DNA of 64,000 bases from Strobilurus pachycystidiatus. Lineage: Eukaryota > Basidiomycota > Agaricomycetes > Agaricales > Physalacriaceae. Each line of letters opens with the position of its first letter. The stretch's first letter is position 1. Below, piece after piece: positions 28,949 through 57,226 of the stretch. Where the stretch lies: NCBI GenBank assembly GCA_019915135.1, contig JAHLMK010000001.1:5270001-5334000 (forward strand). Direction: 5' to 3'. The notes below the pieces were generated by a model. The model was not told the origin of the DNA. It searched no databases and saw nothing but the letters and a program-made list of their open reading frames with translations. The translations under genes were made by a program, and so were the position numbers.

Positions 28949-29110
28949 TATTCGTCTTTTCCCGGTGGCCTCAGCCAACTCGTAGCCTGCTACATACCCA
29001 TTAGGAAGGTAAGTGATGTCACTTTCTCTCAATCGGGGTTTGCCCCTGACTTTTTGTTCGTGTCCTTCCTTGTCTTTTAGTTCGTTTTCCTTACTCATGT
29101 TCGTTCCCAT
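28934..29110 (-). CDS. small ORF at the left end of the large insertion
   Basis: From ATG 29110 (MGTNMSKENELKDK) a basic/charged frame runs leftwards through DITYLPNGYVAGYELAEATGK and leaves the element at its left end, taking its last residues and stop from the host gene. It is divergent from the F-box-like gene at 29273. No family was recognised. The true protein may end differently in other copies, or the ORF may be chance. Confidence 0.3.
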   Translation of the reverse strand: MGTNMSKENELKDKEGHEQKVRGKPRLRESDITYLPNGYVAGYELAEATGKRRINQIP

Positions 29111-29272
29111 GTCGTCGTGATTAATAAATTTGTATGTTGTATAGCCAAATTCTGTGTCGGTTTCAAGTGTGAAGCGACCTAAGGAAACACGATCGCTGGC
29201 GCCATTTGAGATTTGTGTACCGTGTATCTCCTCGCGATCGTTGTCCAATCCTCTTCCCCTTCCTTTCTTACC

Positions 29273-30519
29273 ATGATCAACACGTACGTCGTAGCATATT
29301 CCTTTCACTCTTTCTGATCAGGCGAAAGCAGCTTAGCGCCCGAACTGGATGAACTGGTGTATTCCTATTTGGGTACACTGGAACTCGCTAGACTTGCCCG
29401 TGTCAATCGAATCGGGCGGGCGAAAATTCGACGGTTCTTCGAGGTCCACTTCCGCCTTCCTAACTTTCTGCGTCAATGGTTGAAATCATCGCATATCGAT
29501 GCATTTTTGGCGGTCTTCGACCGAGACTGTTGGGTCATCTCAGGTTCCGGTGCACTCTCTTTTTTGAGTCGCGTGCCGTTCCCGGATGCCGACCTTGACC
29601 TGTACAACGTCGTTCCTACTTGGCAGCCTATGTTTGCCTACCTGCTCTCAGTTGGTTTTAACGCCACTGTATACGAAAACGCGGATCGTCCCACTCGAAT
29701 TCTTTCTTCTGTCGATGATGCTCGGGATTGGATCACACGCGCAAGTTACTAATAATACTCGCGCGTCGACGAACATTACAGCCATGGCTTGTTTGCCGTG
29801 ATCACTATGATTCATCCCGTCTCTCGATCTAAGGTTCAGCTGAATCTGGTTACTGAGTCTATTACAAACGTGATTTTCGCTTTTCATAGCAGTGGGTTTC
29901 GTTTTTTTCTGCCTGTTTCTTATGTCTTATTCTATGTCTTATTCTATTTTTTTTTTCTTTAGCTCTGGTCATGAACATTGTTACGAGCTCCTATGCGATG
30001 TGTTTATTTCCGCATACGACCCTCTGCCTGAAAAGAGGTGTGATTGTCGGCCGTGTGAAGGATATTGAGCCCATCGTTCAAAAGTATAAGCAGCGTGGCT
30101 GGGAACTGGGATCGGGGTCCGTCGGTGTGCTTCATCGGGAACTCGTGGGTATGAGATTCGTTGGTGACGCACAGTCATTCGCTATACGGTTTAAAGGATT
30201 GGGTGAGGAGCTGTCCGGAAGCTTTGGCCGACGGTGGCCTTTCTATTCTAGGTTGTACGAGTTGTACGGCAATTCGTGGGAGCTCTTTGTCGAAGGAGAT
30301 AGATGGCTGTCGCAGTGTGCGATTCGGTCAGACATTGTTCGGAGTGTCCTCGATAATGGGAAAGTGACGATTTGGAGTCTCGCACCAAGCGTTGTACGGG
30401 CTATGGGGATGGACATTTGGGTGTGGGATCATGGTAGGAGACTCGACTCTGTTGACCATTTGCCGGTCAAAATGTGGGCGCTTGTCAGAGAGGCTACTAA
30501 AAAAGTATTACTGCAGTGA
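29273..30519 (+). CDS. F-box-like protein, family member A (possible frame break)
   Basis: ATG 29273 joined over intron 29284-29328 gives MINTSLAPELDELVYSYLG, an F-box-like start (proline, then Leu-rich helices). Next is DCWVISGSGALSFLSRV, an alternation reminiscent of nucleotidyltransferase-type folds in this family. After a break near 29745-29786 the frame continues (GLFAVITMIHPV...LNLVTESITNVIFAFHS). An intron at about 29894-29961 then leads to LVMNIVTSSYAMCLFP and a long C-terminal part to TGA 30519. At the break two TAA codons coincide with a perfect TACTAAT branch motif and a following CAG, but no donor restores the frame exactly, so a 1-nt indel or a misjudged intron is likely. It is paralogous to the gene at 30806. 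Confidence 0.5.
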
Positions 30520-30805
30520 TATTGTGTTGCTCTGCGTTGTTTTCGTTTAGTTCGATTATTTGGAAATTTCTGTCCACATTTGTACGAATCGTTTGCCATT
30601 CTTGGTCATTTTTCATTATTATTCGTCGCGCTTTGGTTCGTCGCATCGCCGAGGTTCGTAACTTTTTTTACGCCGGGTAGATGTCGATATCCTTATCCGG
30701 ACGCCATTGCGCCTTCACTAAATCCTTCCTTCTTTCACCATCTTGTTTTCATAACGTAGTGCGTTTCTTACGCGTTTTGGTTTTGTCTGACAGTCGTTCT
30801 TCAGC

Positions 30806-32378
30806 ATGGTCACGGCCAGTCCCAAGAACAAGCTTATCGGCCATCTGAATTCGTGGCTCCCGTCGTGTCTGCTTGTGATTGCTTTCGTAAAACTTCTGCA
30901 AACCACGGACGTTGTCATAGGCGGTGACCTTCCCCTCCACTTTTTCGACGCTCGTATTTCCCTTTCCACCAATCTCCGGCTTCATGGTCATACACGATTT
31001 TGTGATACTGTCACTCGGTTTTTCCACTCGGCCAGTTACACATTGGTTACGGTTGCGTTTCCTCGCCATTGCTCCTTTTTCGCTAAACACGATCCGTCCT
31101 TTTATGAGGCCTCGACGCCATCTGAACGGGACCGAGTCGTATTTAACTTTCGAGATGAACGAGGTTACTCTGTAACGTTCGATGCATCTCCGGAAGGTGC
31201 CATGGACAGTCTACTCTCATGTCCGTTCAGTGAGTGTTTTCTGGTTGTCGCTCTCAATCGCCGTTAATTTGTGTGTAGCTATGGACATGAATTTCATTTC
31301 CGCTACGCGCGTTGTGTCTTTGTACCCATCCTTGACTTTCCGCCATCGCCTGAACCTCGTCCTTACCCCCACGCTGCCGGCGTTCGCGCTGAAAAAGATG
31401 GACATTCAACACGGTTCGCGTTACACCCTGCATCGTTCTGTACACGATGATGATCGCTTTCTTGAGGCGCGTGAGCTCTTGGCTCCGACGCGTTACCTCG
31501 GCGATGGTTATTGTGAAGTACTTCCTTTGGAGTCTGGCGGACACAGTGACTCGTTTCTTGCCTCGCACTCTTGGGCATTTTTTCCTGTTCCTCTTCCTTG
31601 TGGACGGGGAACCTTGTATCATTGCCATCGTTATCAGGTCCTGGGCGAACTTTTCACCGACGGTGTGGTTAAATATCACTGCCTTGCGCATCGCACCATG
31701 TCGTTGCTCGAGAAAGATAAAATGACTATCCCTGTGATACGCTTTTTGTGAGGCCTCCCCTTCTTCTTGCGTCTTATGTTCCGCTGACGTTTCCTTAGCG
31801 GTCACGAAGCTTTCGAGCGGGCTTTGTCTAACTTGTCGCATAGACTTGCTAAGGACGACGAGACCTTCACGACAAACCTCCTGACCCGTGGTTTTTCTCC
31901 TTCGCAAGCTGCAAATGCCATGCGGTCGGGTGTACATGGTGTTTGGAAACTCATCTTATCTGAACACGATCAGCGTCGTGTACTCTTTGAAGACTTTCAA
32001 CAGCGCCTCGTTGACTTGGATGCTACTGATTCGGACGCTACCACTGACAGCGACACACAAAAGTCCAGGACTATATCTTCCTTGGAAGACACGTCCGCGG
32101 CCTCGATTGCCGACGACGCTTCGTACGTTCCATCGTCTGGCGATCTTGAAGACCTGTCGTCGGACTCTTCCTCTTCGGAAGCTGGTTCTACCGATGACAC
32201 TTCGGATACCCATTCCGATACCGCGCTCTCGTCCCGCCATGCCCGTGCCTCCAATCGATCTGTTATCGATATCGCAGACGATGACAGGGGCCCGTTAATG
32301 CCTGAGGATCTTGATGGGGTTTTGTGGGTCGTTCCAGACGAAGAAGTCATTGATATTTCTTCGGATAGTGACGCGTAA
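30806..32378 (+). CDS. member B of the same family, with acidic tail and SUMO-interaction-like motif
   Basis: Exons 30806-31229, 31279-31747 and 31799-32378 (introns 49 and 51 nt) give one frame of about 490 aa. The N-terminal part has VVIGGDLPLHFFD where paralogue A has VISGSGALSFL. The middle has FTMDMNFISATRVVSLYPS against TLVMNIVTSSYAMCLFP in A, so the two are related. The C-terminal ~150 residues are Ser/Asp-rich and end in VIDISSDSDA, very like a SUMO-interacting motif (V-I-D-x plus acidic). A second such run is SVIDIADDD. The protein is probably nuclear; its biochemical role is unknown. Confidence 0.55.
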
Positions 32379-32846
32379 ATATCTGTATGTCTGTATGTCC
32401 GTCTTGGAACACCAAAAATGAGTTATAATAAGTCACACAGTAGTCGTGCTTCGATCTTCACCTTCCGAGGTTGAGTCATCGTCTGCATCTATGGTATTTC
32501 AGATTGTAATAATAATCTGTTCATCGATAAGTACGTGTCCCACTTGCGATCGTCATCTTTGATTTGTTGTGGCTGTAGCGATCTTGCCGCGGCTATTCTC
32601 TAGATCTGTCTTGTTTGGAGACTCTTTGATTTCGCAATGGTACATTATGTCCTGACTAAGATGTTTTAGGTCTCCTCACTTGACGTCGTCTGCAACTTCA
32701 GCCGCTTGATTCGCAACGACGCGTCAGCGATAATCTCCTCTTCGTGAAATGAGCGTTTCTTCGACGCGCTGTGTCTCATCTGAATTCGTTGGCGGTGAGC
32801 GCACGCCATCTGTTAAGTCTGAATAAGTGTGTTGTTAAGACTCGAG
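32379..32846. other. intergenic, convergent gene ends
   Basis: This holds the 3' flanks of the genes ending at 32378 (plus) and 32847 (minus). No gene was recognised. Confidence 0.5.
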
Positions 32847-33814
32847 TTAACTCGCCTGTTTGACGGTTCCATCGAGTAATGTTACGTTACGAAGCACGGC
32901 AATAAGTTTTGAATCCCCTCCTTTGAGCTCGACGGCTGTGAATGTAATGATCAACTCGACGACGTGGCCTTCTTGAAGCTTTGACGGATTGATGTCTTGG
33001 AAGCTACCAAGTACGGTGTCAATTGCGACTCGTCCGGTAAGTGTCGGGTTGACTTACTTGCGTTGGTCCCCTGTGTACTTGAGTTCGGAGTAACTGACTT
33101 TGTTGTCGGTGGCGTGGAATCTGTTGACGTTTACGAACTTGCCAAGGATACCCTTCGGATCGACGTTGACGTCAAATAATGACTCTTCAAGGTTTGCCGC
33201 GCGATTACGATTCGTGAAGTAACGGTTGGAAGCGTCCAGGGTTCTGTATCCTTGATATTCCTTGAAGACGTCCAAGGGTTTGAGTCGCTCTGTCCCGATT
33301 TCCCCGGCAAACAGGGCGTATACTTCGCTGATGGCCTCCGTGGCTTCTGTGAAAGATGCTGATTGAAATCCGACCAGAGAAACCTCTTGACGAAGGAATG
33401 GGGCTTTGTCTTCCCTGCGTTGAACCTTAGTAACTGTATGCTCGATTGCCAGTGCACTACGTACTTCACGGGCTTCGTCCATGGAGGCAGCTGACACTTC
33501 GAGATGACGCCGTGGATACGAAAGAGAACTTCGTTGTCTTCCTCGTCGAATATACGCATCTCTTTGTTGTTGGAGACACTCTTCACGGTGTACAATTTCA
33601 TGAGATTCCTCTAGGTAGTGGATAAGTCGTTAATCGGGGCGAGGATACCGAAGCATACCAGATCGATGTTCTTGAGATATACACCGTCCGTGTTTTCCGC
33701 TGGTCGTTTCTTCGCGAAACGGTCGATAATTTCAGCTAGAAGGTGGTGAGATGCACTCTGATTGCCCCCTTGGTAGTTCTTACAGGCATCGTCGATGTTG
33801 TAAAATCCGTCCAT
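32847..33814 (-). CDS. unknown protein, OB-fold-like, one apparent frame slip
   Basis: Exons (minus strand) 33814-33659, 33610-33058 and 33003-32847 are joined by introns of 48 and 54 nt. The start is MDGFYNIDDACKNYQ and the C-terminal part is EGHVVELIITFTAV...SKLIAVLRNVTLL. That alternating hydrophobic pattern and length (~288 aa) suggest an OB-fold/single-strand-binding type protein, but this is a guess from pattern only. The exons sum to one base short of a multiple of three. The frame changes by -1 near 33495 (ISK to VSAASMDEA), so either a base is missing or the splice model is incomplete. It is divergently transcribed from 34081 with about 270 bp between starts, suggesting joint regulation. 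Confidence 0.5.
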
Positions 33815-34080
33815 GCTCGTGCGCAAAGAGTCGAAAGGTGACTTTTGCCTGTGGTGTTTTCTTCGGAATTGTTCCTATGTTTCGTCTAGTTTGCAATTCG
33901 TCCGTCCCAGCGCTTTGACTTTCATCCATACCAGAAAGGTTCTGTCTGGTTCGTCCATCTATCCCCTTCCGGTCTCCTGCCCGGTACTCAAATACCTAGC
34001 GTACTTCGTTTTTCCAACTGTCGTCCTTCCACCCTTCGACACCGCAACTCGTTACACGTGTATTCAGCCGGTCTGCTTCA
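33815..34080. promoter_or_regulatory. shared promoter region of a divergent gene pair
   Basis: The 266 bp between start codons at 33814 (minus) and 34081 (plus) must hold both promoters. No specific box is assigned. Confidence 0.45.
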
Positions 34081-37000
34081 ATGTCCCAGCAAAAGTAATC
34101 AAGCTATACCTGCGTCAAGTTTTACTCATTTGCCTGACAAGGTCCAACTATCTTATCTCGGACGAGGAAGAGCAGTAAGTTATGTTATTGACTTTTCCTT
34201 ACCCGTGAATTAATCATCAATCAGGCTGCCTTCCACTGAAAAGCTCGTGAACGACGCGGCTACAGAAGCGAAGCTCAAGAAAAGGTGGCCCTCTTGTGCT
34301 GTTGCCTCCCCATCGTTGTTAACCCGCTCATCAGACCCCGCGTGTCGAACTCCCCGCCCAGAGATAGTGCTCCTGCGAAGAAGAAGACCAAAGACGTCGC
34401 GCCGGCTGAGTACGCTTTCCGACTTGTCCTCGATTATTGTTACTGATCAACCGTTTTTCAAGTGGCAAAGGTCGTAACTTGCGTCCTCGCAATAAAGTCA
34501 ACCACACCGGGCTTGAGTGTGTTATTTTGTCTATAATTCCTCCGTCCCTTTTTCTCATCCGTGCAATAGGGATCTTTCCGATCTGAGTGAGCTCGAGACG
34601 ACTCCCAAGCCCTTGTCAGTTCTTTTTTTCTCGTGCTACTCGTCTGCGACGTTGACGAATCTTGCAGGCGCCGTAAAAAGTCTGACGCGAAGGTCAAAGC
34701 TGACGCCGACGCCGAGGATAGCAAATCTAAGGCAGATGTGGAAGCGGAGACCAGGGCCGACAAGGCCGCAAAAGCGAAGGCTAAGCGCGAACAGACTAAA
34801 GTCGCTAAAGCTGCCGAGGCCGCCAAAGTGGAAGCCGCGAAAGCCGAAGCTGCCAAAGTCGAAGCCGCCAAAGTCGAAGCCGCCAAAGTCAAAGCCGCGA
34901 AGGTCGCGACTGTCAAAGCCGCTCAGGCCAAGGCAGACCGAGTTGCTCGAGCCGAAACGGCTAAAATTGCTCAAGCCAAGGTGGCCGAAGCTGCTCACGC
35001 CGAGGCTGCCAAAGCTGAACGGGAACAAGCTGCGAAATGCGATTCCGTTGAAGGTACTTCGGAACCTTCGACGGAGGATACCGACGACGACGACGAAGAA
35101 GAAGTCGATGCTGAGGTCCGCGCGCTCGAGGAAAAGCTTTCCAAGGCTCGAGCTTTGGCATCTGCTCGGAAGAAGGAGCGTTCGTCGGCCAGTCCGGTAA
35201 AGCGCACTCGTAAAGTGTCGGTGGAGTAAGTCGTAGTTCCTTTTGCCCTTCCTCTTTTGATTCAATGATCGCAGAAACTTTGATGACCTTTCTGAAAACG
35301 AGCAGTAAGTCGTGTACTCATGGCATTGAGAATTCGACATTTACCGCCATTTGTGATACCAGGATGCGCATAGCAATGCATGTTCTACTTCGCGTCGCGT
35401 GTCATTGAACGATTACTTATTTATTTCTTCAGTGAACGTTCGAAAGTGACGAGTGACAAAAAATCTGCTCCTGAAGGTGTAGGTCCGTCCTCTTCGGGAC
35501 TGTTACCTGCGTGGGACGACAGGTTGGTCCGTGTGCACTTCAGAGAATTTTTCTGACCGTACTAATTTCAGTGACGCATCCTCGCGAAGTTTGAGCGGCC
35601 TTTCCGCTGCAAGTAGTCGTGGGGATCCCCCGCAGCGACAGACGGACTTGTTTGATACCAAGTAAGTTAACTTATATCGTTTCTCGTAAATGTTAAATGC
35701 ATGCTTTAGGTCGGATGCCTCTGCTGATATTTCGGACAACGAAGCGCCACGGTGAGTCCTGTGGATAGTATGGGGTGTTCCAAATTGAACGTTTTTTCAG
35801 TATTAGTACCGAGGCAAAGTGGGTGGCCTTTCGTTGCGTTACTTTCGCTAATCTTGTGTTGGCAGAGGCAAACAGCCTGTAAAGAAGCCTGTGGCGACGT
35901 CTTCGAGTGCTGCCATTGATATTTCGTGAGGTCGCTGTTTCTTGAATCTGGACCTTGACAGCTTATATCTCCCACAGTGACGACGACGATGTTGCGATTA
36001 CTCCCAAGAAGAAGCCCGGAAAAGTCGTTGTCGTGTCTACCCCCTCGGCGACTGACCGGATTGACTCCTTCGAACCCGATTCGTGGAAATTGATACTGTA
36101 GGCTCAATTTCTGCATTTTTTACATGATAATCACCTATTACGATGAAGGAAAAACTGTTGTACTCTGCACCGGCCCAAAGACATGCGTTACCACCAGATC
36201 ATCACGGATAGAAAGGAAAATCTTCCGATTTATGAGGCTTTGTACGACCTGCCGTACGTCGTTTACGTTCACTTGCTGGTCCTCCACTTGTTACTGACCG
36301 TCCCTAGGCTTGTTGAAATCAAATCCTCGACATCGGGTATCGTTTACGAAACTAAAGGCACTGTCGTTATGAATATAAGTGACTTTTACGAGTTACCCTC
36401 GACTCATTCACAAAGGTTTTTTCCTTTTGATTCGGTCTGTTGGATGGCTTCTGATTCCTGCATTCTTAGGTTGGCTGTCGAGGCTTTCGACTTTGTCGAA
36501 ACAGATACGTGCATCAACCCGGCTCGTATCGATCCTCGTCGTTACACGAAAATCCCGGCGCCGACTGGCAATGCCTACGACCCTGGTTACATCGTTCGTC
36601 GCCAAACGCAGCAGCCCGTTGTTCTTCTCTATACCGGCATCGTGCACGAGTGTCGACTGTACGACGAGGAAGTTACACAAGCTGCTCGCCAAGTCAAGTT
36701 CATCGGGCTTTACCCGGTGAACATTGAGTTCCATCGCATGGTCGGCGCGACTTACCTTCTCACGGATGTACACTTCGATTCTACCCAAGGCCCGTTTGCT
36801 CATCTTCAAATGGAGGTTGGCGCATCCCTCGAGGAAACAGACCCGTCGGTTGTCAAGTTCGTCTCTCGAAGCAGCGCTGTAAATGCGGGGACTTCTCCAA
36901 CCAAACCTTCCCCTTATCAGTTGAAGAAACAAGAAGAGGCCGGGATGAAAATCAACACCACGAAGGGTCGAACGGTCGTACCGGTCCAACCACGTCCTTA

Positions 37001-37315
37001 CAAGGAGAAAGGTAGGCGGTATCATGTCAAGAAATCATAAACCTAATGATAATTTGTCTAGTACCAATCTACGATACGCGTTATAACCAGAATTTCGCGT
37101 TTACGCCGGAGTACCTCGATAACCTGCCTCGTCATTTCGGTGATCATCTTTACAAGAAGGGTGGATTCGACGTACCTCCAGGCAGTTTGGTGACGGTTGG
37201 CTTCCTTCCATCCACGTTTGCTCCACAAGGACGTCCGATACTCCAGTTCCATCCCCTTTTTGTCCTCCTTTTGCATACTAGGCCCAAGACTTTCGATAAG
37301 ACGCGGGATGATTAG
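34081..37315 (+). CDS. intron-rich nuclear-looking protein: Lys/Ala coiled coil plus unknown C-terminal domain
   Basis: From ATG 34081 (MSQQKSNYLISDEEEQ) about 17 short introns can be removed to give one frame ending at TAG 37313-37315. Examples are 34095-34141, 34175-34224 and 37012-37061. Next come basic patches (RPRVSNSPP, KKKTKD), LEDLSDLSELE, then a long Ala-Lys-Glu repeat of KVEAAK type (34690-35040) expected to be a coiled coil. A string of tiny Ser/Asp-rich exons includes AAIDISDDDDVAI, a second SUMO-interaction-like motif in this locus. From 36183 a globular region begins (RYHQIITDRKENLPIYEAL, MNISDFYELPS, PVVLLYTGIVHECRLYD). I do not recognise the domain. Several exon junctions are my best guess. 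Confidence 0.55.
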
Positions 37316-37959
37316 GACGGGAGGCGTGGAGTTGAGGGTGGTAGTGGTCGGAGGGAGCGGTGTCGTTGATTTCCCTAGTGTTGGTAGGATGATGTCTCGT
37401 CGATGAGCGCTCCCCCGTTTAAGCACTATGGGCGGTGTGCATTTCCTGCGAGTTGGCGTTGGTCTTTTTCTCGATGACGGATCGGTTCGCGTTTGTCGTC
37501 TTGTTTTTTTTTTAAACCCAATGCCATCGTATACACGTATGACAGGGACGCGGCCATCGAGTAGAACGGACTTGGAGGTAAGAGTGAAAAGGGCGTGTGA
37601 CGTTACTCTCAGATGACCGATTTGTCACTGGGCGACTTTAACTTTACTCTTCCGACCTCTTTTGACCAACAGCCCTTTCGCGTGTATACGCGTCAGCGCT
37701 GCCTTCTGTTTTCCGTCTGTCGTTCTTTTCGCGTTGAGAGCGGTCTCGACCTTTTTCGTGATCGTATCTGCGTACTTTAAACGCTGGGCCGTCCTCGTCC
37801 TTGCAAGAGACCAAGTCAGTGAATGTCCCTGACACACCACCGTTCTTACGTGCTGAAGATTTTTAGCAAAAGCTTGGTGGCGTAATGCCGGATATTTATC
37901 ATTTCGACCGCCCTGGAAGGTGATTTAGATTTTTTTATTGTATCCGTATACTTTCGCTC
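37316..37959. other. intergenic between two plus-strand genes
   Basis: Open stretches without a recognisable product. A T-run at 37506-37515 and an AT-rich segment before 37960 are the only notable features; the latter is probably promoter. Confidence 0.4.
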
Positions 37960-40728: not shown

Positions 40729-40758
40729 TTCATCTGCACCTCGATCTTAACCTTCATC

Positions 40759-41154
40759 ATGCCCTCTAAAGGGAAAATCGTGAAAGACCCGCGACAAACA
40801 ACACTGCCTTTTCGCTCGGGAAAGTTTGCCGGAAGGGCTGCCGTTCTATCGCGTTTAAAGGCGAACGTCCGTCCCAAATCGGTCTCCATCTTGCCTACAG
40901 TTCAAGTTGCACGAGTCGATCAGTCCTACCGTGACGCTCAAGGAGCCTGTAAAATCAAGGGCGGAGACCTCAATCTGAAAGATGGACGCTGGCGGGCGTT
41001 GCTGTGTAAATTACTGGAGGACGGTTGGATTTCAAATCCCGCAGGTTCGTTCTCTTCGCTGGCATGTTGTAACGAAAGTTAACCTTTTGGTTTGTACCCA
41101 GTGTTGGATAGTGATGATTACGCCTGGGAACTATTGCGATGGTTTGACTTGTAA
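40759..41154 (+). CDS. small basic protein (about 112 aa) with a PIP-box-like motif
   Basis: Exons 40759-41044 and 41102-41154 (57-nt intron) give MPSKGKIVKDPRQTTLPFRSG... to ...DYAWELLRWFDL. The N-terminal QTTLPF preceded by basic residues looks like a degenerate PCNA-interaction box, and the C-terminus is acidic/aromatic. It starts only 30 bp after the 922-aa ORF on the same strand. Family unknown; the PCNA link is speculation. Confidence 0.5.
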
Positions 41155-41678
41155 CTTGATCTGAAACATCTCGTTTCCCAGTCTGATTTCCAAGTAGGTG
41201 GCCAGACTACGGTCCTTGTGTCGGTGCGCCGCGATTGATGCGATGGGAAAGAGCATTGAAGCTGAAACTGTCTGTTCCTGTGGAGGTATATGCGTATTCA
41301 ACCTGCGACGGATGTCAGATTCGATTGAACTTTGCCTAGATTCATGATATCCTTGCCACGAAGACCGCCCAACAACATGCTCGTTACAGGGAAACTATTT
41401 ATTGGGGAACAATATGAAGAATGGGATGTATCTACCTACAGTGTCCAGTTCGGCTCAATCGTGTAGTGACTCGTATACGCGTACGCAAGGTCATTTCAAT
41501 AGGCTTATCGATGCGGCGCAGGCACGATGCGGCAAATGTTACATGTCGGTAATTTGAATATGTGTCACGTTGAACTTCTTTCTGACCTCCACTACGATAA
41601 TGGTTTGTCTTCCTTTCCGTGGTCATTCAGTGTCGCTTGTAATGTGGCTCTTCCTGGCATTCTGGTACGTACGCGTAT
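41155..41678. other. intergenic
   Basis: No gene recognised; the inverted-repeat element follows directly. Confidence 0.4.
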
Positions 41679-45900: not shown

Positions 45901-48900
45901 ACTCGCTGTAAAACTCGAACTCGGCTCTCCGATGATATGCCTATATTTACTTGGCAATCCGGACCACTATACGGATCACAAGTTTATACCGTTCTATTGG
46001 AAGACATTTGTGACAGAGGCACTGTCTGTATGGCAGCCTACTGACGAGGAAGCGCCGTCCACTAGGGTTATGATTCGAAAAGATAGGCATGGCCATGTCA
46101 AGGCTGTCAGTAACGTCAAAGATTATACTTTCCGCCACGATCATTTTGCCCCTCTCTGTTTGTACGACTGGGTCTTACTCACCGAAAAACATATAAGAAA
46201 AAAAGCTAAGAAAAATGCAGAAGATTCAGACGAAAGCGATGACGAGGGTGAAGACGAAAGCGATTTTGGTATCAGGCCCCTACCGAAAAACGGTTTCCCT
46301 TTCACAGAAGGGCACGGGTTAGAAGACAGTCATTACTTGAAAGCAGTCGAATACTCAGAATACAACGTTGTCAACTTCATAAATCCGAACATTTTGCCGC
46401 GGAAAGATGGTGGTGACAGAGAATATTACTGTGCAGCTATGTTGACTTTGTTCAAACCTTGGAGATCAGGTCACGACCTGAAGGACGTGAATGAAACTTG
46501 GCACGATACCTTCGAAAATTTCGACTTCACCGAACGTCAACGACGTATAATGGACAACTTCAATCTTCGATACGAATGTCTAGACCAACGAGACGACTTC
46601 CACGCCGAAATGAAAAAGGCCCAGAGTGAGGCGAACATTTCTAGCTGGGACCCCAAAGTGTCCTTGTCCGAGCCCGTAGAATTTTCCGAGGATTACATGC
46701 CCGGATCCGACGGTAACGAAGATATTTTGTCACCGGAGGACTTGGTAGATGAACAGTTTTTTACCACCGGTCATTGCGATCATCGTACACTTGCTAAGAT
46801 GATGGAAATGAGACAAATGCTGCAAACGGCGCATTGGACGACGGAAGTACCAGCGGCAATGCCTCCTCGCAACGAAGAACCCTCGGTAAAAAGGTCTGGA
46901 TCAGAATGGTTGGCAGAACTTCAACGTATGAAAACGCTCATTGTACAACGGCGGCTTCGGAATTTGCCTTCTGAAAAGAAGAAAAATCGAAACGAGGACT
47001 TCGATCCTAACAAAGTCGAGATTCTCACAAAGGCCCACTTGGAAAAAAGGTATCATTCAAAGGAATTCAAAGAGGTCATCGATAAGGTTGCTCGCGACTT
47101 CTTGTTGAACGAAGAACAGGATCGCGCGTTCCGGATTGTTACCAACCATGCTGTTAATCCGTGGAGTGAACAATTGAAAATGTACATCGGAGGTATGGGT
47201 GGCACGGGTAAAAGTCAGGTATTGAAAGCGTTGATTGCTTTCTTCGAGGCAAGGAATGAACGTCATCGCATACTGATTGTCGCGCCTACGGGTTCCGCCG
47301 CCGCCTTGTTAGGAGGAACAACCTATCATGCAGCTTTCGGATTCAACCAGCATAAGGCACTTACCAGTGCCGTGGCATCCAGCGTAAAGTCGAGACTGAC
47401 TGGCGTAGATTATATCTTCTTCGACGAAGTCTCTATGCTCGCTGCGGGCGATATGTATAAGATCAGTTCGCAGCTTTCAAGAGTTTTAGAACTCGACGAA
47501 ATGGCCTTTGGCGGACTCAATATGATCATGGCCGGTGACTTCGCGCAGTTACCTCCTCCTCAGAGAGGAGAACAAGGCTCCCTTTATAGTGATGACGCTG
47601 GCAAGAAAGTGAAGACCCGATATGATCAGGAAAAAGCTCACGGCAAGGCGCTTTGGCACACCTTTACAACTGTTGTCATTCTCCGAAAAAACATGCGCCA
47701 AAACAGTCAAACCCCGGCAGATGCGAGTATGAGAACTGCACTCGAGAATTTGAGATACGCGTCCTGTACAGAAGACGACATGCGATTCTGGAACACGCTA
47801 GTGTCTTCCTTCGCTCCTGATAGGAAAAACATCGCGGAGGAGCGTTTCCGTAACATTTCGATTATCACATCACAAAACTTACAGAAAGACGAAATCAATA
47901 GAGTAGGTGCCCAGCGCTTCGCACACGAGACCGGGCAGGAACTGATAACTTTCTACTCCGCTGATTCTTTGAAAAAGGTACGAAAATCAGACGACGAGCG
48001 CGAGAGCGCCAAAGGTAAAAGAACGGTGGTTCACCTCGCGACCCTGCCCGAACGGTTACAGAGAGGCTTATGGGAACAACCGCCCTCAGCTACAGAGCCG
48101 AAAGTTGCCGGTAAACTCAGCCTTTGTCGGGGAATGCCCGTTATATTGAGACAGAACATCGCGACTGAGTTGTGTATGACTAACGGACAAGAAGGGTTTG
48201 TTTACGGATGGGACGTGAAACCCGGACCGCAAAACCAGAACGCCTTGGAAACTCTGTACGTGACTCTTAAGAATCCGCCTTACACTGTGAAGTTGGAAGG
48301 TCTGCCGGAGAACGTAGTTCCTGTGCCGAGCGTATCGAATCGTGTATGCGTCAATTTACCAAGATATCAAAGAGCCTGGATCACGCGAAAACAGGTGGAA
48401 GTTTTGATTAATTTTTCGATTACAGATTACGCATTGCAAGGAAAAACCAGACCCGAAAATACTGTGGCGTTGCACAATTGCGCGTCCCATCAAGCCATTT
48501 ATACATCTCTGTCACGAAGTGCAACTGCCGAAGGCACCATCATCTTACAAGGCATAAAGCCCTCCCTGAGAAAAATGATGACCGGCGGTGCAACTGGCAG
48601 GCTTCGACAGGAATTTCGGGAAGTAGAACTTCTCGATGAAATCACAAGACTTAGATTCAACAGTAAATTGCACAAGTCAGTCCACGGCGAAACACGTACG
48701 CAAATCATAACGGCCTTTCGACTGATTAAAGGAAATCAATGGAATCCTGGTACGCTGCATAAGTTTCTCCGGTGGAATGCTAAAGCACCGTGGATCTCGG
48801 TACTTTCAGTAGACCAATTCACTTGGCGTCAACTCACGTCCGAAACCGAAAACAAGAAGAAGCTCAACGCGTCTGGGAAAAGGAAGGCGGTGCAATTGGA

Positions 48901-49765
48901 CGGTCCTGTGGCCAAAAAAGCAAAAGTAAGCGCAACTGCTCGGCCGATTTCGAGGACGGAGGTCCCATCACCCTTAGGAATACAATGGTCCAATAATAGC
49001 TGTGCCTACGACTCGTTTTACATCGTGCTCGTCCATCTTTGGAAGAACAACAAACCTTTTTGGGATCGTGTGTGGAGTACTGGCAACGACTACACTGTGG
49101 AATTTATCACTCTCCTTAGGCGGCATGACCAAGACAGACTGGCATTGGAGAATGTTCGCGATGTCTTGAGATCTCGATATGCCACTGAATTCAGTGCCCA
49201 CATGGCTTTCGGGCGTGTAACCTCGACGGAAAGAGTGTGGAGGCCGTTCATGACGTGCAACTCTACTCTCTATCGGGTCATGAAAACCTGCGCGACGTGT
49301 AATGAAACTGTATTGATGCACGATGTACGACACTCATTGATAGCAATGGACAGAAGGGGTGTGTACGACATACAACAATGGATCCGTACCGATGTTCCAT
49401 CGAGACAAACCTGTCGACGTTGCAGCAGTCCGCTCCGCCTCCACACACAATTCTTGAATGCCGAACCTTTACTTGCATTTGACTGGGATGACAGGGTGAC
49501 CCCCCTGCAAAGGATTAATCGTGGACTCGAGGTGCCTTTGTTGGATGGAAGGTTAGTGAGTTACGACTTGGTCGGTGTCGTGTATTTCGCACATGCCCAC
49601 TTCGTTACCCGGTTGTATGTGGGGGGCAATTGGTGGTTCCATGACGGAGTAGGGACAGGAAGAACCATGGTTTACGAGGATGATGGATCGTTCGATTGTA
49701 GCATGCTCCAGTGCAGAGAATATGTGGCCGTTGGTGCAATATACGCGATAGCTGGCAATGGATAG
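42960..49765 (+). CDS. Helitron-type Rep/PIF1 helicase with C-terminal ubiquitin-protease-like domain
   Basis: Rolling-circle transposase-helicase. The main frame (43484-49765, 2,093 codons) is preceded in the -1 frame by a matching N-terminus (SAP-like ELSRYTTVRELIEVA, then EEGGCAVCGQ); the two meet at a run of eight A (43511-43518). Within the main frame: a Cys-rich region (CRECRGHV), and Rep with the two-His motif LTLHLHLMLWI (near codon 537) and two tyrosines in YITNYITK (near codon 756). A PIF1 helicase follows with Walker A GGMGGTGKSQ (near 1235), Walker B FFDEVSML (near 1313) and GDFAQLPPPQ. From about codon 1835 a cysteine-peptidase-like domain has NNSCAYDSF and a His box HFVTRLYVGG. 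No stop interrupts the main frame, and the Rep and helicase motifs are intact. The 5' end is not determined. Confidence 0.9.
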
Positions 49766-50381
49766 TCGGTCACCCGTATACACAGGTAGCGGACAAGTTG
49801 GGACGAAGGTTTGAGAGAAGATGTGACCACGGGGTCGCCGGTGGGAACGGTTTCAAAAAAACAAAAAAAAAAAAAAAAAATTAATATATATATCCCGCAA
49901 ACTTGAGTTGGACGATCCGAACTGCGAAATCTGAATCCTAAATGGCTGAACAGGTAAGTGAGCTGAACAAATAAAATCCTTGCCACGTGCGTTCGATCCC
50001 TGCTCTAGTTTCTACTTTTTGGAGCGCTTGGGTCGTGACTGATGACTCATGCCTTCAAAGCCCGTACCCGAACCGTGGTCCGGAGCTTTTCTTTTCCTAC
50101 CTTCCCTCATCTCTGATACTCGGAAACACAGCGGGCGAACCGTGACGATCTTTCGTGTATACGAATCGTACACTGGTGATATATACTTGCATGCTCGACC
50201 GTGTTCGAACCGCCCTTGCTCGGTGCGTTGTCATAACTCGTTACGTCTGGAAAATACTGATCAATACAAACATACGGCAAAGTTTGTCCGTCTCTGCGTG
50301 TATTACAGCTACAGAGTTTAGTTCGAACTAATGAATAGTTTTATGGCGCCAAGTCAGAATAATTTATACAATTTTTTTCTT
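49766..50381. other. intergenic after the Rep-helicase gene
   Basis: It contains a run of about 18 A (49863-49880) then alternating TA, and a tRNA-like A box and B box pair (49943-49954, 49991-49999) without a foldable acceptor stem. No gene recognised. Confidence 0.45.
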
Positions 50382-51748
50382 TTACGCCGGATGTGCAATC
50401 GCTGCGTGGTTACAGTAAGCATTCAGTATCACCCAAGGCATATCTTGGTATCGCGAAAATATAGTCTGCGGAAAAGAACATTCTGGTAAGGGTACATCAT
50501 CGAAGGGAGAATCGCTGAGGACACGAACGCTCTGCAGATGCAGAAAAGAACGTCTACGGTCCTGTAAGGAAGCAATCAGATTGTACGCTCCCGCGGTAAA
50601 GGAGTCGGCGAGACGAGGGAGACATAGCTCCAGGTGCTCCAGCTGGCTGTCGTGTCTTTGCTGGTCAATGGACTGCAAAAGTATGGGGAATATGCTGGGC
50701 GGGACACGGATCCGGACACGTTGCACGGTGGAAAGGATGTCGGAGAAAAGTCGCGAAAATAGTGAGTGGTCGTCCTCCCATACCGCTTCTGATGTTTATT
50801 GTTAGCCTGTTTTAGAGGGAAACCAAAACATGTTAAGATACCATGTATGAACAACGCAATTTCGCGTCGCGCCCCTGTAATGCTTTTAACACGCTCTCTT
50901 CCCTCCGTGCCGCTCAGGTAACGAAGTTCCGTGACAAGACAAGCTGCTTTACAAACAGCCTCAGATTGCCTCCAGATCGCGCACTCTGTGCCATGCTCGT
51001 CTTCCGTAGAACCAAAGTAATGAAGGTGTTCAGGCTCGCTTGGTATCAAGCCCGAATCCTCGATTGACGTATTGCCGAAGTGGGTATTGTCCTTGAATTC
51101 CAAAGACCGGATTATAGGAATATTCCGCAAGACCCGGTCCATCGCTGTGACCGTGTAGGTACACTCCGTGAAGGTTATACTACTGACGGACAACCTAGGA
51201 TTGAAGAGCACATGCACGCGTTCCCTTTCGAGCGCAATCTTCGAGAACATGATGCTCGTAGCGTTTGTACATCGACGCAAATGAATGGCGAGGCGGTCTA
51301 AGTCAGACAATGTCATCAAGACCTCCTTGGGGGGTGACCGCGCCGCCTCCCTGATGTAGGATAAGTATGCGACGAAGTCAGGGTGCCCGTTCGAGAGCGT
51401 AACGGCCATAGGTCTGTTCGAACCTATAATCTCGATCTGACGGACGTGATCTATCCATTGCGGTGTCTGTGACAAAAGGACACCCAGCCCTGTAGATAGG
51501 TTCAGAAAGCACTTGTAGCATGGTACGAAGAATGACCAACCCTTTATGTCGCTCGATTGTAGATATATGAGCAACTTTCTGAAGAGAAGCCGCTGGGCCC
51601 GATCGCGATTGGCTCGAGAAACGAGTGAGAATGTCATGAGCACTTTTTGTCGCGTATCATTGTCGACGATAGCCCAACGCAGAATTTCGTCCATAAGCTC
51701 TGAAGGGATTTCGCAAACATTGGAACAATCAGGTATGGCGTCTGACAT
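50382..51748 (-). CDS. F-box-type protein 1
   Basis: Minus-strand exons 51748-50842 and 50788-50382, with a 53-nt intron, encode about 437 aa. The N-terminus MSDAIPDCSNVCEIPSELMD followed by EILRWAI and FSLVSRANRDRAQRLLFRKL is a typical basidiomycete F-box plus linker. The rest alternates Leu-rich strands (ITFTECTYTV, IRSLEFKDNT, LEHLELCLPR) as in F-box proteins with irregular leucine-rich repeats. Such proteins normally recruit targets to an SCF ubiquitin ligase. An upstream in-frame ATG at 51847 would overlap the start codon of the divergent gene; I chose the internal Met because the F-box follows closely. Confidence 0.65.
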
Positions 51749-51845
51749 GGGATCTGACAAGGAGTTACGGACGATCGGATGGAAGAACTGATTTACTGTA
51801 CCGTTTTTGAAATATTTCGATTTCCGGACTTGCGGCTCGACCGTC
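51749..51845. promoter_or_regulatory. 97-bp bidirectional gap between two F-box genes
   Basis: The divergent starts at 51748 (minus) and 51846 (plus) leave under 100 bp for both promoters and leaders. If the minus-strand gene uses ATG 51847 instead, the two start codons overlap in CATG. Confidence 0.5.
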
Positions 51846-53277
51846 ATGGCCAACCATGGCGTCAGCGAAGCGCTACCTTGCCATCTTGTGGATGAGATTA
51901 TCGACTGGGTCTTGTTGATTGTAGGTTCGCTCGTAAACCGTCGGGCTTTCCTCCTCAGACTTGCCCGTGTGTCGAAACGATGTAAAGTTTGGGCTCAAAA
52001 AATACTTTTTCGATGCGTTAGGTTGGAACTGGACGAAAATTTCCTACACAGTGAGTACCGTGTACATTGTCTACAATCCCTTACGTGACCACGCAACCAG
52101 AACTATATCGGGTGCTCGTCAAAAGACTCGACCTTGCACATTGTGTTCGAATGGTCGAATTTACATGTGAAGATCGTACCATCCACTTCAATGGATCCAC
52201 CTGGGTTCATAACGTTCCAAGTGAGCTGTCCCGTATCCGTCCAACTCCAATAAGTCTGACGAGCTACACAGTTGCACCAATGAATTCGGCGGAAATCCGT
52301 CTGTTCCGATTGTCACTCATGAATTGCTTGCGCGACGTCCTTGCCCTCTGTCCAAACGTCACCAGCCTGGTATTCCTAAAAATCAACCTACATCTTCGAC
52401 CAGTTCACTGCGTTGTGGCCGCACGTCACTTTGCCTTGCAGAATATATCCTTCCGTGGATGTACAATATCGGGTCGCTCTCTGGCCGCTATGTTCAACCA
52501 CTTGACGTCCTTGGAGCGTCTGGAATTCATCGGTTGCCGTTTCGATCCTAGGTTGTCTCAATTCGACAAATGGGTACCTCTCCGGCCATTTGCGGTCCGA
52601 CACTTTATTGATTTGGGGTGGGAAACCAGCAAATATGCTTACAATGGCATCGAGCGGGAATGGTCCGCCTTTAGGCAGAAACATCTCCAACCTTCGTGCG
52701 AATGTCTCGCCGTTACGCCCACGAACAGTGCATATCCAAATACCCGTTTCGGCGGTCGCCATTGCCTGGCTCTTTGGTTAGACAGAGGTAGATCTCCGCG
52801 AAAACGCTGCTGGCCTTGATTACTGACAAGTTTACAGATAGCAGTGTTATGCTGGTACTCAGTTACCTGTCAAGACTACAAGACATTTTTACCACGGTCA
52901 TCAACGTGCGACTAGGTCTACCAGCGTGCTTCGCGGTGTCTTGTATGCGGCAAGCGGTCGAGAGCGTCGGCACTTCAAGTTTTTTACAGGAACTTGACGT
53001 GACGCTCTATCCTCCAACGAACTCCAAGTTGAAAGGATTGTCCGACAGTACGGTCGTCGCTGAATTAGACTCGCTGGTTACATCCCTTGCTACTAAGCGT
53101 GATCATTTCGCGGATCTCAGGAAAGTTTCGTTCCAGTACCGTTTGGTTGGGGATACAGACATACGTCTGTCTGCTTTGGAATGTGACAATCCTTTCGATG
53201 TTTCGTGGTCGCAGGGTGATGTTACTGTTGCTTGGAGGATGTACAGTGTACACAAAGGAATACGCGGTGTTATATAA
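51846..53277 (+). CDS. F-box-type protein 2 (gene model uncertain)
   Basis: It starts MANHGVSEALPCHLVDEIIDWVLL and LARVSKRCKVWAQKILFRCVRL, an F-box pattern like its divergent neighbour. A 50-nt intron (52051-52100) leads to LYRVLVKRLDLAHCVRM and Leu-rich strand repeats (NISFRGCTISGRSL, LERLEFIGCRF). Near 52600-52650 the plausible frame shifts by +1 without a clear intron. A further intron 52777-52837 then links to SSVMLVLSYLSRLQDI and a stop at 53277. The middle therefore contains either a missed intron or a frameshift. The F-box assignment is from the N-terminus only. Confidence 0.5.
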
Positions 53278-53373
53278 TCTATGGCGTCAAGAATTTATTT
53301 ACTCGTTTTGCGACTGTGCGCCTGTATATATGCCGGTCCGTAGCTTAAAACTTCAACCTACGTCGACACCCGG

Positions 53374-53955
53374 TTGTCCCATTATGGATGGCATCGATCT
53401 CTCCTGTATCATTACACCGATGACCTGTTCCGGCCTTGGGTTCGTCTACCGGGAAACGTGTCTTCAACTACTGATTCTTTCTGGCTCTCAAGCGATACGA
53501 AGCGTAACAAGATTCCACCTCGTGAACGAAGCTTCAATCGATGCCCATACGCGGATGGCCTGGGCCACCCTAATCTTTCAATGGGCATGCCTGTACCATC
53601 CAGCGGCGTCGTCTTCCGCCGTAAATGCCTCAACCACGCGCACGAAGAGGACGACTACTGTGGGATCATCCTCTGTCATGTGTGCAGTTCGCAATGGTTT
53701 ACTCTAGGTTACGGAGACGAATTTGTTGTCGGCGAGGTACGTCACTGCCTCCAACGTCAGTACTTCGTGTCCAATCGACATACCCAGGCCGTTGATACGA
53801 GCTTCGATCTTACCAACAGCCAATATGTCTCTGTTGAAAATGTCCGCTGGTTGTGGGAGCGTATAAAAGAAACAGGAATGCGCAACGTATCACCCGATGA
53901 CATGACTGTGGGGGATGAGAGCAGTGACAAGGAAAATTTCTCCCCGACGCGTTAG
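53374..53955 (+). CDS. unknown protein, C-terminal exon, ends with a KEN-like motif
   Basis: A frame of about 190 codons without its own ATG, so it is probably the last exon of a gene starting near 53281 or a continuation of the preceding one. It has a Cys/His-containing stretch (FRRKCLNHAHEEDDYCGI then CHVCSSQWF) and ends DESSDKENFSPTR. KEN is a known degradation signal for the anaphase-promoting complex, but here it may be chance. No family recognised. Confidence 0.4.
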   Translation: MSHYGWHRSLLYHYTDDLFRPWVRLPGNVSSTTDSFWLSSDTKRNKIPPRERSFNRCPYADGLGHPNLSMGMPVPSSGVVFRRKCLNHAHEEDDYCGIILCHVCSSQWFTLGYGDEFVVGEVRHCLQRQYFVSNRHTQAVDTSFDLTNSQYVSVENVRWLWERIKETGMRNVSPDDMTVGDESSDKENFSPTR

Positions 53956-54105
53956 TTTGTCTCCTTTGTAGCGTAATTGTTGGGACTGTAACGCGACGTC
54001 TTAATCGTGGAGGAACAATAATATGAAGGACGGACGTCCGGTGATGCGGGCTCTATATTTTGGCCAGCTAGATTATATTGCAAATTTATCCTCTTCCTCA
54101 CCACC

Positions 54106-55521
54106 ATGTCAATGTGGGTACAACGATAACACTTGCACGCAGAACTGACTTCAATAACGACTTACGTAGTCTCAATTTAGCGCCCGAACTCCTGGACAAA
54201 ATTTTCGGATTGTCCTCTCTGGAAGGCAGAAACGACCCCCTCCTGCCCGAGGTGTGGATTGCCCTAGCAATGGCAAACGCCCATCCAAAATTTCGGGACA
54301 TCGGATTGAGTGTCGTTTGGCGGAAGATTTGTGTCGGGGATTACGCGCTAAGATTCGACTGGGCGACAGAATGCTTACCTGGCAAAACTAGATCAGACGC
54401 CGACACAATCGCCTTCTTCAAGTCCAAACCGCTGATTTGTGAACGTGTAGTCACGATTCGAGCGAACGAACGATGCGGCAACGACGCCTCGGATTGGAAG
54501 GAACTCGTAGACCTGTTTCCCAACGCCACGCAGCTCGACATCGGAGGCGCCACCCGATGTCAAGCGCTACTAGAGGCGTATCAGCAATCCGGACCATCAA
54601 CCATGAATATTCAGGCAATCCGCGTTCGAAATATCGTTGAGTGGGACCGCTCGTTCAATCAACTGTTGGAATGTTTTCCTGGTTTACAGCGCCTCGAAGT
54701 GTGTTGTACCTACATGGTAGAGGACTGGGTCCTCAACTTCGACTTTCCTCAGCAAATACGAACGCTTATCGTACAGACGGGTCAACAATCGTTATGGTGG
54801 CACGCGGCATCTGCAGGGGAGGGATGGGGCAGTACCGCGTTTCCCGTCCCCGCAAAAAATGCGCCAATTGTCAACCCACTTTTCGTCAAACGTTTGGAGA
54901 TACATCTCGATGAAGGAGGATTCAAAATACCCTGGGCTGAAGATTTAATCGCAAGATGCAAGGACTCAGTCGAGTGCTTGGCATTGAATTTCCACATCTG
55001 TAGTAAGCCGTCGTTCTCTGGCTTGTAACAATATCTCACGCAGCATAGTTCGAGCTTGGAAGGCGTTCGGAGACGCAGAGGCGCAACCCATGCGCATTGG
55101 ACTTCTCGAACGGACCCGCTACCTTAAGCTGGGTTGGACTTGGGGTTCGACAGCCAGCGTGATGTTGCTAGAGACAGTACGTCAACTTGAAGCACCCAAT
55201 CTGCGGCGCGTCGACATGCACGTGTATTACTATGGACCGGCCCACCCGTCGCTTAGGGCCAGAGACATAGCCCTGGAGTTTGTGAACCTACTCGGAGTGG
55301 GAGTGGTATATTCCATCCGCTGCGTGGCTGTCACTTTCGATCGGGACACATGGGAACCAACGCACGTTTCCGTTACTGCCAGACAAGTGTATGAAGGCGC
55401 GTCAGCTGTAGTCGCGAATCTGAGGGAAAATGCGCCACGCGACGTAAACATTGCTTTGGAACATATGGGACTTTCGGGTTTCGACAGTGATAACCGGAAC
55501 ATACATATTACACGGTGGTGA
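54106..55521 (+). CDS. F-box-type protein 3
   Basis: The protein reads DLRSLNLAPELLDKIFGL...WIALAMANAHPKFRDIGLSVVWRKI, a basidiomycete F-box start, then repeats such as KELVDLFPNATQLDIGG, FNQLLECFPGLQRLEV and FVKRLEIHLDE. Intron 55003-55048 (46 nt) joins NFHIC to IRAWKAFGDAEAQPM. The second exon runs to TGA 55521. The first codons are unclear: ATG 54106 would need a very short (29-nt) intron to reach the F-box frame. It is the third F-box-type gene in 5 kb. Confidence 0.6.
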
Positions 55522-55588
55522 TGTAATACATACAGTTGTAAATGTGGGGGCACAATAATCATTGGCGAGCTAATCCCTACTGGTCATG

Positions 55589-56056
55589 TCAGAACCCCTT
55601 CCACAACTCTGTGTAATACTGGTAGCCACCGAAACGACAACTCTCGCACGCCTCTCTGTCTTCTTCGAAATATTCGTATTTGTCGTAATCCGGTTCCATC
55701 GACATCATGAAGAAGTCGTGGAAAAACGGGAAAAGGTTACGGCGCGTGATAGAGACCCACGTCTCGTCGAGTGGCAATCGTCCAACGCGCTGCCAACGAA
55801 AATGAGTTCGAGTACGGTATCTAGCTGGCCAACGACCTACTTCTCCCACTGTCATGGTATAATGGTCGGCGTGCGTCCAGTTATATTCCACAAAGAACCA
55901 CGTCCCGACGATTCGATTGCCGCGTGAGCGGACCATGACGTTCCCATTGTTTGACAACGTTGGCTGGGGGCCGTCGTATTCCAATGCTGCTCTGAACTCG
56001 ACTTGGTGTCGAGGGACTAATTCGCCAGTGTGGCAGCGAGGCACACGAGGAGGCAT
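55589..56056 (-). CDS. unknown 155-aa protein
   Basis: From ATG 56056 (MPPRVPRCHTGELVPRHQVE) the minus-strand frame is intronless and ends FGGYQYYTELWKGF. It is rich in aromatic residues and Arg, with a Cys pair CESC near the end. It converges with F-box gene 3, with stop codons about 70 bp apart. No family recognised. Confidence 0.45.
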   Translation of the reverse strand: MPPRVPRCHTGELVPRHQVEFRAALEYDGPQPTLSNNGNVMVRSRGNRIVGTWFFVEYNWTHADHYTMTVGEVGRWPARYRTRTHFRWQRVGRLPLDETWVSITRRNLFPFFHDFFMMSMEPDYDKYEYFEEDREACESCRFGGYQYYTELWKGF

Positions 56057-56176
56057 AGTGGTGATATCGATGGACTGTGTCAAAGAGTGAGTTGCTTGGC
56101 GACACCAAAAACTCAATTTAACCGCGTTTAAACATTCCATCTGTCGGCCGAAATGGTTAACTATGAGTTTAACCAT

Positions 56177-56639
56177 GCCGCGTTATCATGCGGAACAAGT
56201 ATACTCCTGTATACTATAGGACCTGATTTAACGGTTCATCCGTAGTAACGGAATGGAAATATCTTGTGTAGCAGGGAGTTTCACTTAACCACCTCATACC
56301 CAATGTTGTAGATCTTCAAAATTACTACAGGATTGCTCTGTACACTTCACCTTCACGATGTAGAACCGCAGGGAATTCAGCAAAATTCTATGACGTATAA
56401 AACCCCCGGAATGATCGACATCCAATACGCGTGCCTTACCATCATTCCTTATATGGACTCACCGCCAAACGTACTTGGAATATATCAAAACGCATATAGC
56501 GTGCTGAAATGTGTGGAACGGGCATGACATCGTCGTCTTGTACTGATGAGGTCGTTGGCATCGATTTGTGAAGCTTAAAATTTCCTTGACATCAAACCAC
56601 CACCATCACCTCACACAGACCTTTTCACACCTCCAGAAC
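56177..56639. other. intergenic
   Basis: No convincing gene; an open stretch at 56333-56527 has no recognisable product. Confidence 0.4.
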
Positions 56640-57123
56640 ATGCTCCTGACCTTCAAGTAAGTGTTCCACATGTTATAGCACACATGAATTGACTTTGTGA
56701 GCAGAAAATTGGTCCTCTGGGCCTTCACATCAATTGCAGTGGCCTTTGTAGCCTGGCAGGCCAAGTACGCGATTATTTCGCGTAATTTTTGCCCATCTGA
56801 CTTGGTCCTAGTGTCTACCGTTCGCCCATTATCCGCGGCGCCGCTCGGACGCTCGAGACCGCGGCCAAATTCAACGGTGAGCGAATATTTTATTGATTTA
56901 ACGGAAATTACCCCGGGTTGATCGGTCCGATCGCCGGCGGGGACGCTGACGCTGGCGCAGGACGCCCCGTACATTTCAGTCGCGACTTCGAGGGCTTCTC
57001 CGTGAACGCAGAGATCGAGCAGAACGACGAACGGTAGGTTCAAATGATATTTTCTTTTCGCGTTGCTAATGAATTTACAGTGTGGCGTTGAAAATGACGC
57101 TGAGCTGGCCCGCGAACTTGTAG
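56640..57123 (+). CDS. small single-pass membrane protein (85 aa) at the right end of the insertion
   Basis: Five exons (56640-56656, 56705-56764, 56812-56876, 56961-57033, 57081-57123) sum to 258 nt, exactly 86 codons. Every junction is GT-AG and in phase, which strongly supports a real gene. The protein has an N-terminal hydrophobic helix (LVLWAFTSIAVAFVAWQA), a short basic region, then FSRDFEGFSVNAEIEQND and a TLSWPANL end. It may be membrane-anchored with the C-terminal part on one side. No family recognised. The element ends about 100 bp downstream. Confidence 0.6.
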
Positions 57124-57226
57124 TTGTAGTTACGTAGATACAGTGAAAAAAATGTGATTCCCGTGGCCGTATACTTTCCATTCGTACCTTGGCGCCCCGA
57201 CGCCCCACTTTCTCACGTAGAGATAT

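Follow-up and report, generated by a model that had tools for sequence, protein, structure and literature searches.

Within a window of 64,000 nucleotides (the whole stretch of DNA analysed, positions 5270001-5334000 of contig C1 in a genome of 51.8 Mb and 61 contigs, here labelled C1, C19, C45 and so on), a host gene is split by a block of 28.3 kb at window positions 28916-57218, which we regard with good confidence (probability about 0.88) as an unusually large rolling-circle transposon of Helitron2-like type, built around a multi-gene core. The assignment to this class follows from a 5′ hairpin, an asymmetric terminal inverted repeat, the lack of a clear target duplication and a Rep-helicase (RepHel) holding both an HUH and a two-tyrosine motif. 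A preliminary description of this DNA had proposed one unit-length mobile element with rolling-circle machinery, and the ends common to several copies, together with the Rep-helicase, uphold that view. The usual picture of a Helitron is a Rep-helicase gene accompanied by captured fragments; the new part here is the gene set, whose order is kept in a distant sister element on contig C19 at saturated synonymous sites.

The interrupted host gene and the ends of the element

The two halves of the interrupted gene lie on the minus strand 28.3 kb apart, and excising positions 28916-57218 rejoins one exon in frame (...TFVLAND-ISTANF...), the flanks with a single T kept reading ...TFVLANDISTANFIISLGTNIFATACIAVKTW... 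in one frame. This gene is multi-copy in the genome, as a search with its peptide, spliced by eye, shows (61 matches, 60 candidates scored). At three paralogues (C15:344519, C15:352868 and C1:4330697) one stop-free match, covering query residues 89-133 at 58-67% identity, crosses the junction residue 108, whereas the window's own matches stop at residue 93 on one side and resume at 108 on the other, which places the split beyond chance. The preliminary description had proposed that relatives be searched for the uninterrupted gene; whole paralogues were found within this same genome, to which the comparison was confined. By eye the product looks like a membrane protein, and its first exon gave no match in Pfam.

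The limits of the element were set by the alignment of copies: five other genomic places match the block over its first 94-174 bp, with starts agreeing to within one base, and four of these five also match it over its last 42-46 bp. The ends proposed earlier, 28952 and 57223, were replaced on this account by 28916 and 57218, while the insertion itself stands. The restoration of the gene upon removal likewise holds as an in-frame rejoining, but across LAND-ISTANF and not across the LAND-KSNS first given: position 28952 falls 36 bp into the element, within its 5′ hairpin, so that the earlier join retained around 12 element codons and was in frame by coincidence.

Searching the genome with the end patterns at up to one mismatch gave 12 matches for the 5′ pattern and 11 for the 3′ pattern, among which nine pairs stand in the correct order and strand (the window and eight places elsewhere), leaving three 5′ and two 3′ ends unpaired; at up to two mismatches the 5′ and 3′ patterns gave 43 and 19 matches, against 8 and 3 for a reversed-pattern control. 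The paired copies measure 28.3 kb in the window, 30.6 kb on C19, about 11.7 kb on C31, about 3.7, 2.5 and 2.3 kb on C5 and 5.2 kb on both C12 and C2, and a further one at C1:3.1M has 2.5 kb plus a 31-kb insertion; six of the nine were inspected in sequence, the C31 pair and two C5 pairs by coordinates alone. The copy on C19 has both end motifs, and provides the second copy of the block with the same ends that the preliminary description had called for. Across the 1,596 bp compared, the two 5.2-kb copies agree at 99.7%, and two 2.5-kb copies are 98-99% alike, which suggests that the family moved recently. A candidate third giant, the 33.5-kb pair at C1:3085109-3118663, was rejected, the 31-kb insertion in its 2.5-kb element carrying poly-T and a short duplication.

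The Rep-helicase and the class of the element

The 2096-residue open reading frame (ORF) of the RepHel matches the Pfam families DUF6570, Helitron_like_N and PIF1, and it carries HLH at residue 541, YITNY at residue 759 and a Walker A motif at residue 1239; we take HLH to be the HUH nuclease motif and YITNY to be the two-tyrosine motif. The helicase part is similar to solved PIF1 structures and to Helraiser. Among the best 120 of its 190 homologues, many cover 97-99% of the query, and the species named there are the mushroom fungi Panaeolus cyanescens, Tetrapyrgos nigripes and Gymnopilus dilepis, which makes a basidiomycete host likely. One homologue, P0024, matches Peptidase_C98 just under the cut-off (E 1.5e-5); no match to this family was found at the C-terminus of the window's own RepHel. 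Directly upstream of the gene, an AT-rich stretch (41679-41951) holds a 126-bp inverted repeat of 83% identity with a 21-nt gap.

The element presents two marks of the Helitron superfamily, namely a RepHel with HUH motif, tyrosines and SF1/PIF1 helicase, and no clear target-site duplication at the reconstructed empty sites of six copies, which have nothing in common beyond one T. It also has two marks of Helitron2, the asymmetric terminal inverted repeats and the 5′ terminal hairpin (Table 1); the C19 sister has a shorter 5′ hairpin with altered stem letters (fold z -3.6, 1 of 200 shuffles as good). The Helitron1 features (5′-TC and 3′-CTRR ends, AT target) are absent here, and AP endonuclease, a mark of Helentrons, is not among the Pfam matches of the 2096-residue ORF at E up to 0.1. 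The part of the element's ORFs that was scanned gave no match to a tyrosine recombinase (the Starship captain), nor the family B DNA polymerase and integrase of Polintons/Mavericks.

In the portions of the published accounts available to us, the Helitron2 elements of Fusarium oxysporum (FoHeli1-5; PMC5148889) likewise combine a 5′ terminal hairpin, a RepHel and an asymmetric terminal inverted repeat with a set-back 3′ arm, and FoHeli3-5 have no 3′ hairpin, none being significant here either, and end in CTCCTGT where the element here ends in CTCACGT. However, FoHeli1-5 have other end letters and span about 5-11 kb, against 28-31 kb and some ten accessory genes here. HELPO1 and HELPO2 of Pleurotus ostreatus (PMC4289320) are also basidiomycete RepHel elements, HELPO1 having one to four extra genes described as of unknown origin, but they show ends of the T[C/G]/CTRR type, an AT target and extra genes downstream of the RepHel, and the largest among the tabulated elements available to us spans about 13.7 kb. 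Helentrons are alike in having subterminal inverted repeats and a target that is TT or rich in T (PMC4067079), and differ in their AP endonuclease. Maize Helitrons, reported at up to 39 kb against 14 kb for fungal ones, are alike in size but hold captured gene fragments, whereas here entire ORFs are found again in a distant sister; the same source calls whole-gene capture exceptionally rare (PMC6431247). Within open-licence literature on fungal Helitrons, Helentrons and Starships, at the level of titles and abstract openings, no such multi-gene element is described.

Table 1. Features of the element and of its insertion site, in window coordinates.
Feature	Position	Strand	Remarks
Whole element	28916..57218	+	28,302 bp, TTACGAATGG...CTTTCTCACGT; one T common to element and target; set by alignment with five further copies inspected in sequence; nine end pairs found by pattern
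Predicted empty site around junction			...TTTGCTG-T-AGAGATATC...
Interrupted host gene, downstream half	28210..28915	-	limits by eye
Interrupted host gene, upstream half	57219..58010	-	limits by eye
5′ terminal hairpin	28918..28955	+	17-bp stem, 4-nt loop; DNA fold z -5.8, matched by 0 of 200 shuffles
Asymmetric terminal inverted repeat, 5′ arm	28917..28925	+	TACGAATGG
Asymmetric terminal inverted repeat, 3′ arm	57178..57186	+	CCATTCGTA, 9 bp, 32 bp from 3′ end; same arm in C19, C5 and C1:3.1M copies
3′ terminal segment	57187..57218	+	ends CTTTCTCACGT
Gene A	29318..30519	+	several exons, joins by eye; blocks of 44-74% amino-acid identity to C19
Gene B	30791..32378	+	several exons; blocks of 41-50% to C19; C4 matches
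Gene C	32850..33629	-	several exons; blocks of 47-55% to C19
Gene D	34327..35229	+	Ala/Lys-rich repeats; to C19, 28-codon block at 68% and 81-codon block at 30%; weakest case
Gene E	36147..37315	+	to C19, two longer blocks at 60-67% and two short ones at 30-39%
Gene F	37924..40728	+	934-residue ORF
Gene G	40729..41432	+	short exons; three blocks of 30-31 codons, 42-77% to C19
RepHel	42555..49765	+	long ORF 43475-49765, 2096 residues, plus upstream coding sequence
Gene I	50406..51994	-	F-box-like N-terminus by eye; blocks of 27-56% to C19
Candidate cargo, two or three ORFs	52055..55521	+	no convincing C19 counterpart; single 37-codon match at 32% treated as chance
Gene J	55589..56182	-	197-residue ORF; inverted in C19 sister; blocks of 62-66%

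Gene content and the relatives of the gene set

The preliminary description had counted about a dozen genes including the Rep-helicase, which agrees with some ten gene regions having a counterpart in the C19 sister (gene D being the weakest) and two or three at 52.0-55.5 kb having none. The sister and the window are collinear from gene A through the RepHel and gene I, and tblastx comparison yields 48 blocks of at least 25 codons, overlap of up to 30% being allowed. At least four of these look like chance (three off-strand, plus the match at 53.1-53.2 kb), and since the choice of blocks favours protein likeness, we put weight on the long ones. In blocks of 100 codons or more the amino-acid identity is 38-79%: the longest in the RepHel has 861 codons at 72%, with synonymous (pS) and nonsynonymous (pN) differences of 0.87 and 0.18, and other long blocks fall in genes F (233 and 255 codons at 57-60%), E (166 at 60%) and A (136 at 74%). 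Synonymous sites are saturated, pS being at least 0.62 in every block and exceeding pN in all 48. The sister also has an extra gene, about 0.5-1.1 kb from its 5′ end and without window counterpart, whose peptide, joined by eye, gives a weak chromodomain match under the cut-off (E 0.008).

Elsewhere in the genome, clear homologues of genes A and E occur only on C19 and C4 (A has also two weak matches), and gene I has relatives only on C19. On the C4 stretch the matches to A, B, C and E keep their order, A being inverted, and include some in-frame stops, which may be introns or decay; the left end of the stretch, TTACGAATGAAAGAAAT, with two mismatches, is no more than suggestive. Beside this block, minus-strand ORFs (at about 3.3-5.8 kb of the stretch examined) resemble by eye a KDZ-type transposase, and a second end family, TTACGAATGGAAGAAAT, found at 12 places on C3, C4, C9, C14 and C20, has a one-letter variant at C4:2511263 adjoining the A-B-C-E block.

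A wider distribution was observed for gene C, with 11 genomic matches: the window, two on C19, one on C4 and seven others (27-33% identity, E 1e-10 to 9e-7). All seven lie 15-41 kb upstream of a RepHel, six of them on the strand opposite to it, like gene C of the window. The 21 RepHel loci, merged by hand, have 3.4% of the genome within 42 kb, and the chance that uniformly placed matches would give seven of seven is about 5e-11, a rough figure since mobile DNA clusters. From the order kept in C19, the A-B-C-E block on C4 and the position of gene C beside other RepHels it follows that most of the supposed cargo is a long-conserved gene set rather than a recent capture.

Gene F has eight further near-full-length genomic copies, six of them without internal stop, and four of these six belong to one repeated unit on C45, C53 and C55; a relative, a protein of 51% identity, is encoded on a 3.2-kb contig. 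The gene lies near a RepHel on C19, C45 and C53; at its other sites none of the 22 RepHel candidates scored, out of 69, lies nearby. Contig C45 (84,341 bp) consists of two copies of a 41,218-bp unit, which agree in every base over the 5,745-bp stretches compared; the opening 2 kb of the contig is found again at 41 kb and at the contig end, with small gaps but no mismatch, and stretches of 4.3-5.7 kb on C53, C55 and C56 are 99.8-99.98% alike. In the parts of C45 examined, the only window genes are F and a RepHel of 34% identity, and a candidate gene-E relative there was dropped as unsupported (hhalign probability 0.6%). An assembler would produce such a contig from a circle or from a tandem array.

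No accessory protein scanned against the family databases obtained a confirmed family, the F-box and chromodomain matches being all under the Pfam cut-offs. Gene I gave no match to Pfam F-box, and the C19 copy of gene A gave an F-box-like match under the cut-off (E 0.061); in gene A itself, GSG...DADLDLY resembles a nucleotidyltransferase motif, judged by eye and unconfirmed. Sequence searches of the PDB with genes A, C and F returned nothing convincing, a protein search with gene C returned one weak match only, and gene F had no match in a viral contig collection and no family in the databases. A reasonable guess, and nothing firmer, is interference with the host's ubiquitin or SUMO, prompted by the deubiquitinase domains reported for Helentrons in the available part of one account (PMC9741609) and by the sub-cut-off Peptidase_C98 match in the RepHel relative.

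Alternative origins, implications and surroundings

Gene capture by Helitrons is known in fungi from the portions seen of two reports (PMC4289320, PMC6431247), and an ordinary small Helitron could, through end bypass, recently have taken up some 20 kb of adjoining host genes, which would then be passengers. In line with such capture, the 5.2-kb copies carry an ORF that by eye looks J-domain-like and may be a captured host gene (element position 1288-1632 in C12), and the 52.0-55.5 kb segment is without convincing sister counterpart. However, the same gene order at saturated synonymous sites in the C19 sister makes this origin unlikely for the set as a whole, and genes A, C, E and I have no close host paralogue in this genome, their nearest relatives being on C19, on C4 or, for C, beside other RepHels, while the two weak matches of A have an undefined setting. 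Nesting also occurs in this family, as the copy at C1:3.085-3.119M illustrates, and the block could be a composite of smaller elements set side by side, bounded by chance by the ends of one Helitron and inherited as a nest by the sister. This we hold for very unlikely, since the window element contains no internal family ends at up to two mismatches, and conserved proteins cover most of both giants, with A-B-C-E also on C4.

The preliminary description had further spoken of cargo on a scale comparable to Starships, and a Starship-like or other tyrosine-recombinase element merely containing a Helitron would account for the size and gene number. In the part of the published account consulted (PMC12134995), Starships are giant fungal elements with many genes, classed by their tyrosine recombinase and described from Pezizomycotina, unlike the RepHel element of a likely basidiomycete found here. 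The outer ends are of Helitron type and common to copies of 2.3-5.2 kb, and neither the expected recombinase, in the ORFs scanned, nor a clear target duplication is seen; such an origin is accordingly most improbable. The cargo reading is likewise unsupported: most genes recur in order in the old sister and a subset on C4, and the segment at about 52.0-55.5 kb is the only one with the look of cargo specific to this element.

Several observations weigh against the Helitron2-like, multi-gene reading. No 3′ terminal hairpin is significant (fold z -1.0, matched by 33 of 200 shuffles), while descriptions of Helitron2 give it a hairpin at either end, and a 1-bp T duplication is indistinguishable from no duplication at reconstructed empty sites. 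The contrast of pN and pS is biased, because tblastx blocks are picked for protein likeness, and short blocks prove little. An insertion of about 1.1 kb interrupts the C19 RepHel; the ends of the two giants are alike only at 81% (43 bp, 5′) and 86% (44 bp, 3′), and with such diverged ends and genes so far apart no recent jump of the 28-kb unit is shown. The AlphaFold model of gene F has a pLDDT of 27. At the seven other gene-C loci the linkage to a RepHel is one of distance, each locus being a candidate single unit, and gene-C matches are absent near the RepHels on C8, C3 and C32, as near more distant ones (C13, C14, C20, C45, C53 and second loci on C5 and C16).

If the element moves as a Helitron2, its RepHel would nick at one element end and the helicase would then peel one strand off, after which a circular intermediate, joined end to end, would be inserted beside a target T; the shorter copies with the same ends were presumably moved by such a RepHel. 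Accessory genes A-G, I and J would form a long-maintained set serving the element (in replication, host targeting or counter-silencing) and not the host. Some ten genes kept in order until synonymous saturation would mean that rolling-circle elements can be gene-rich genomes themselves, like Polintons, and basidiomycetes would gain a giant mobile element with a chemistry other than that of Starships. The two giants, the shorter relatives with the same ends and the whole host paralogues offer a clean set for testing which parts are needed to move. More speculatively, and in our view doubtful, giant RepHel elements might constitute their own class in this lineage, as rolling-circle replicons complete in themselves, perhaps 28-60 kb long and sharing a conserved set of genes (C widely; A, B, E or F in some lineages), some persisting as circles; C45, with its RepHel, gene F and twofold 41,218-bp unit, would on this view represent a circular or tandem form.

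As to the surroundings, direct repeats of about 1 kb flank the element at window 25212-26631 and 60786-61774, 35.6 kb apart and 79-95% alike by block, the left copy holding a 0.44-kb insertion with 45-bp inverted ends (26078-26516). The last 0.4 kb of the insertion in the C19 RepHel recurs left of the element at 27503-27905 (87%), with the look, unproven, of a solo long terminal repeat (LTR), and at 9759-15205 long minus-strand ORFs resemble by eye an LTR retrotransposon.

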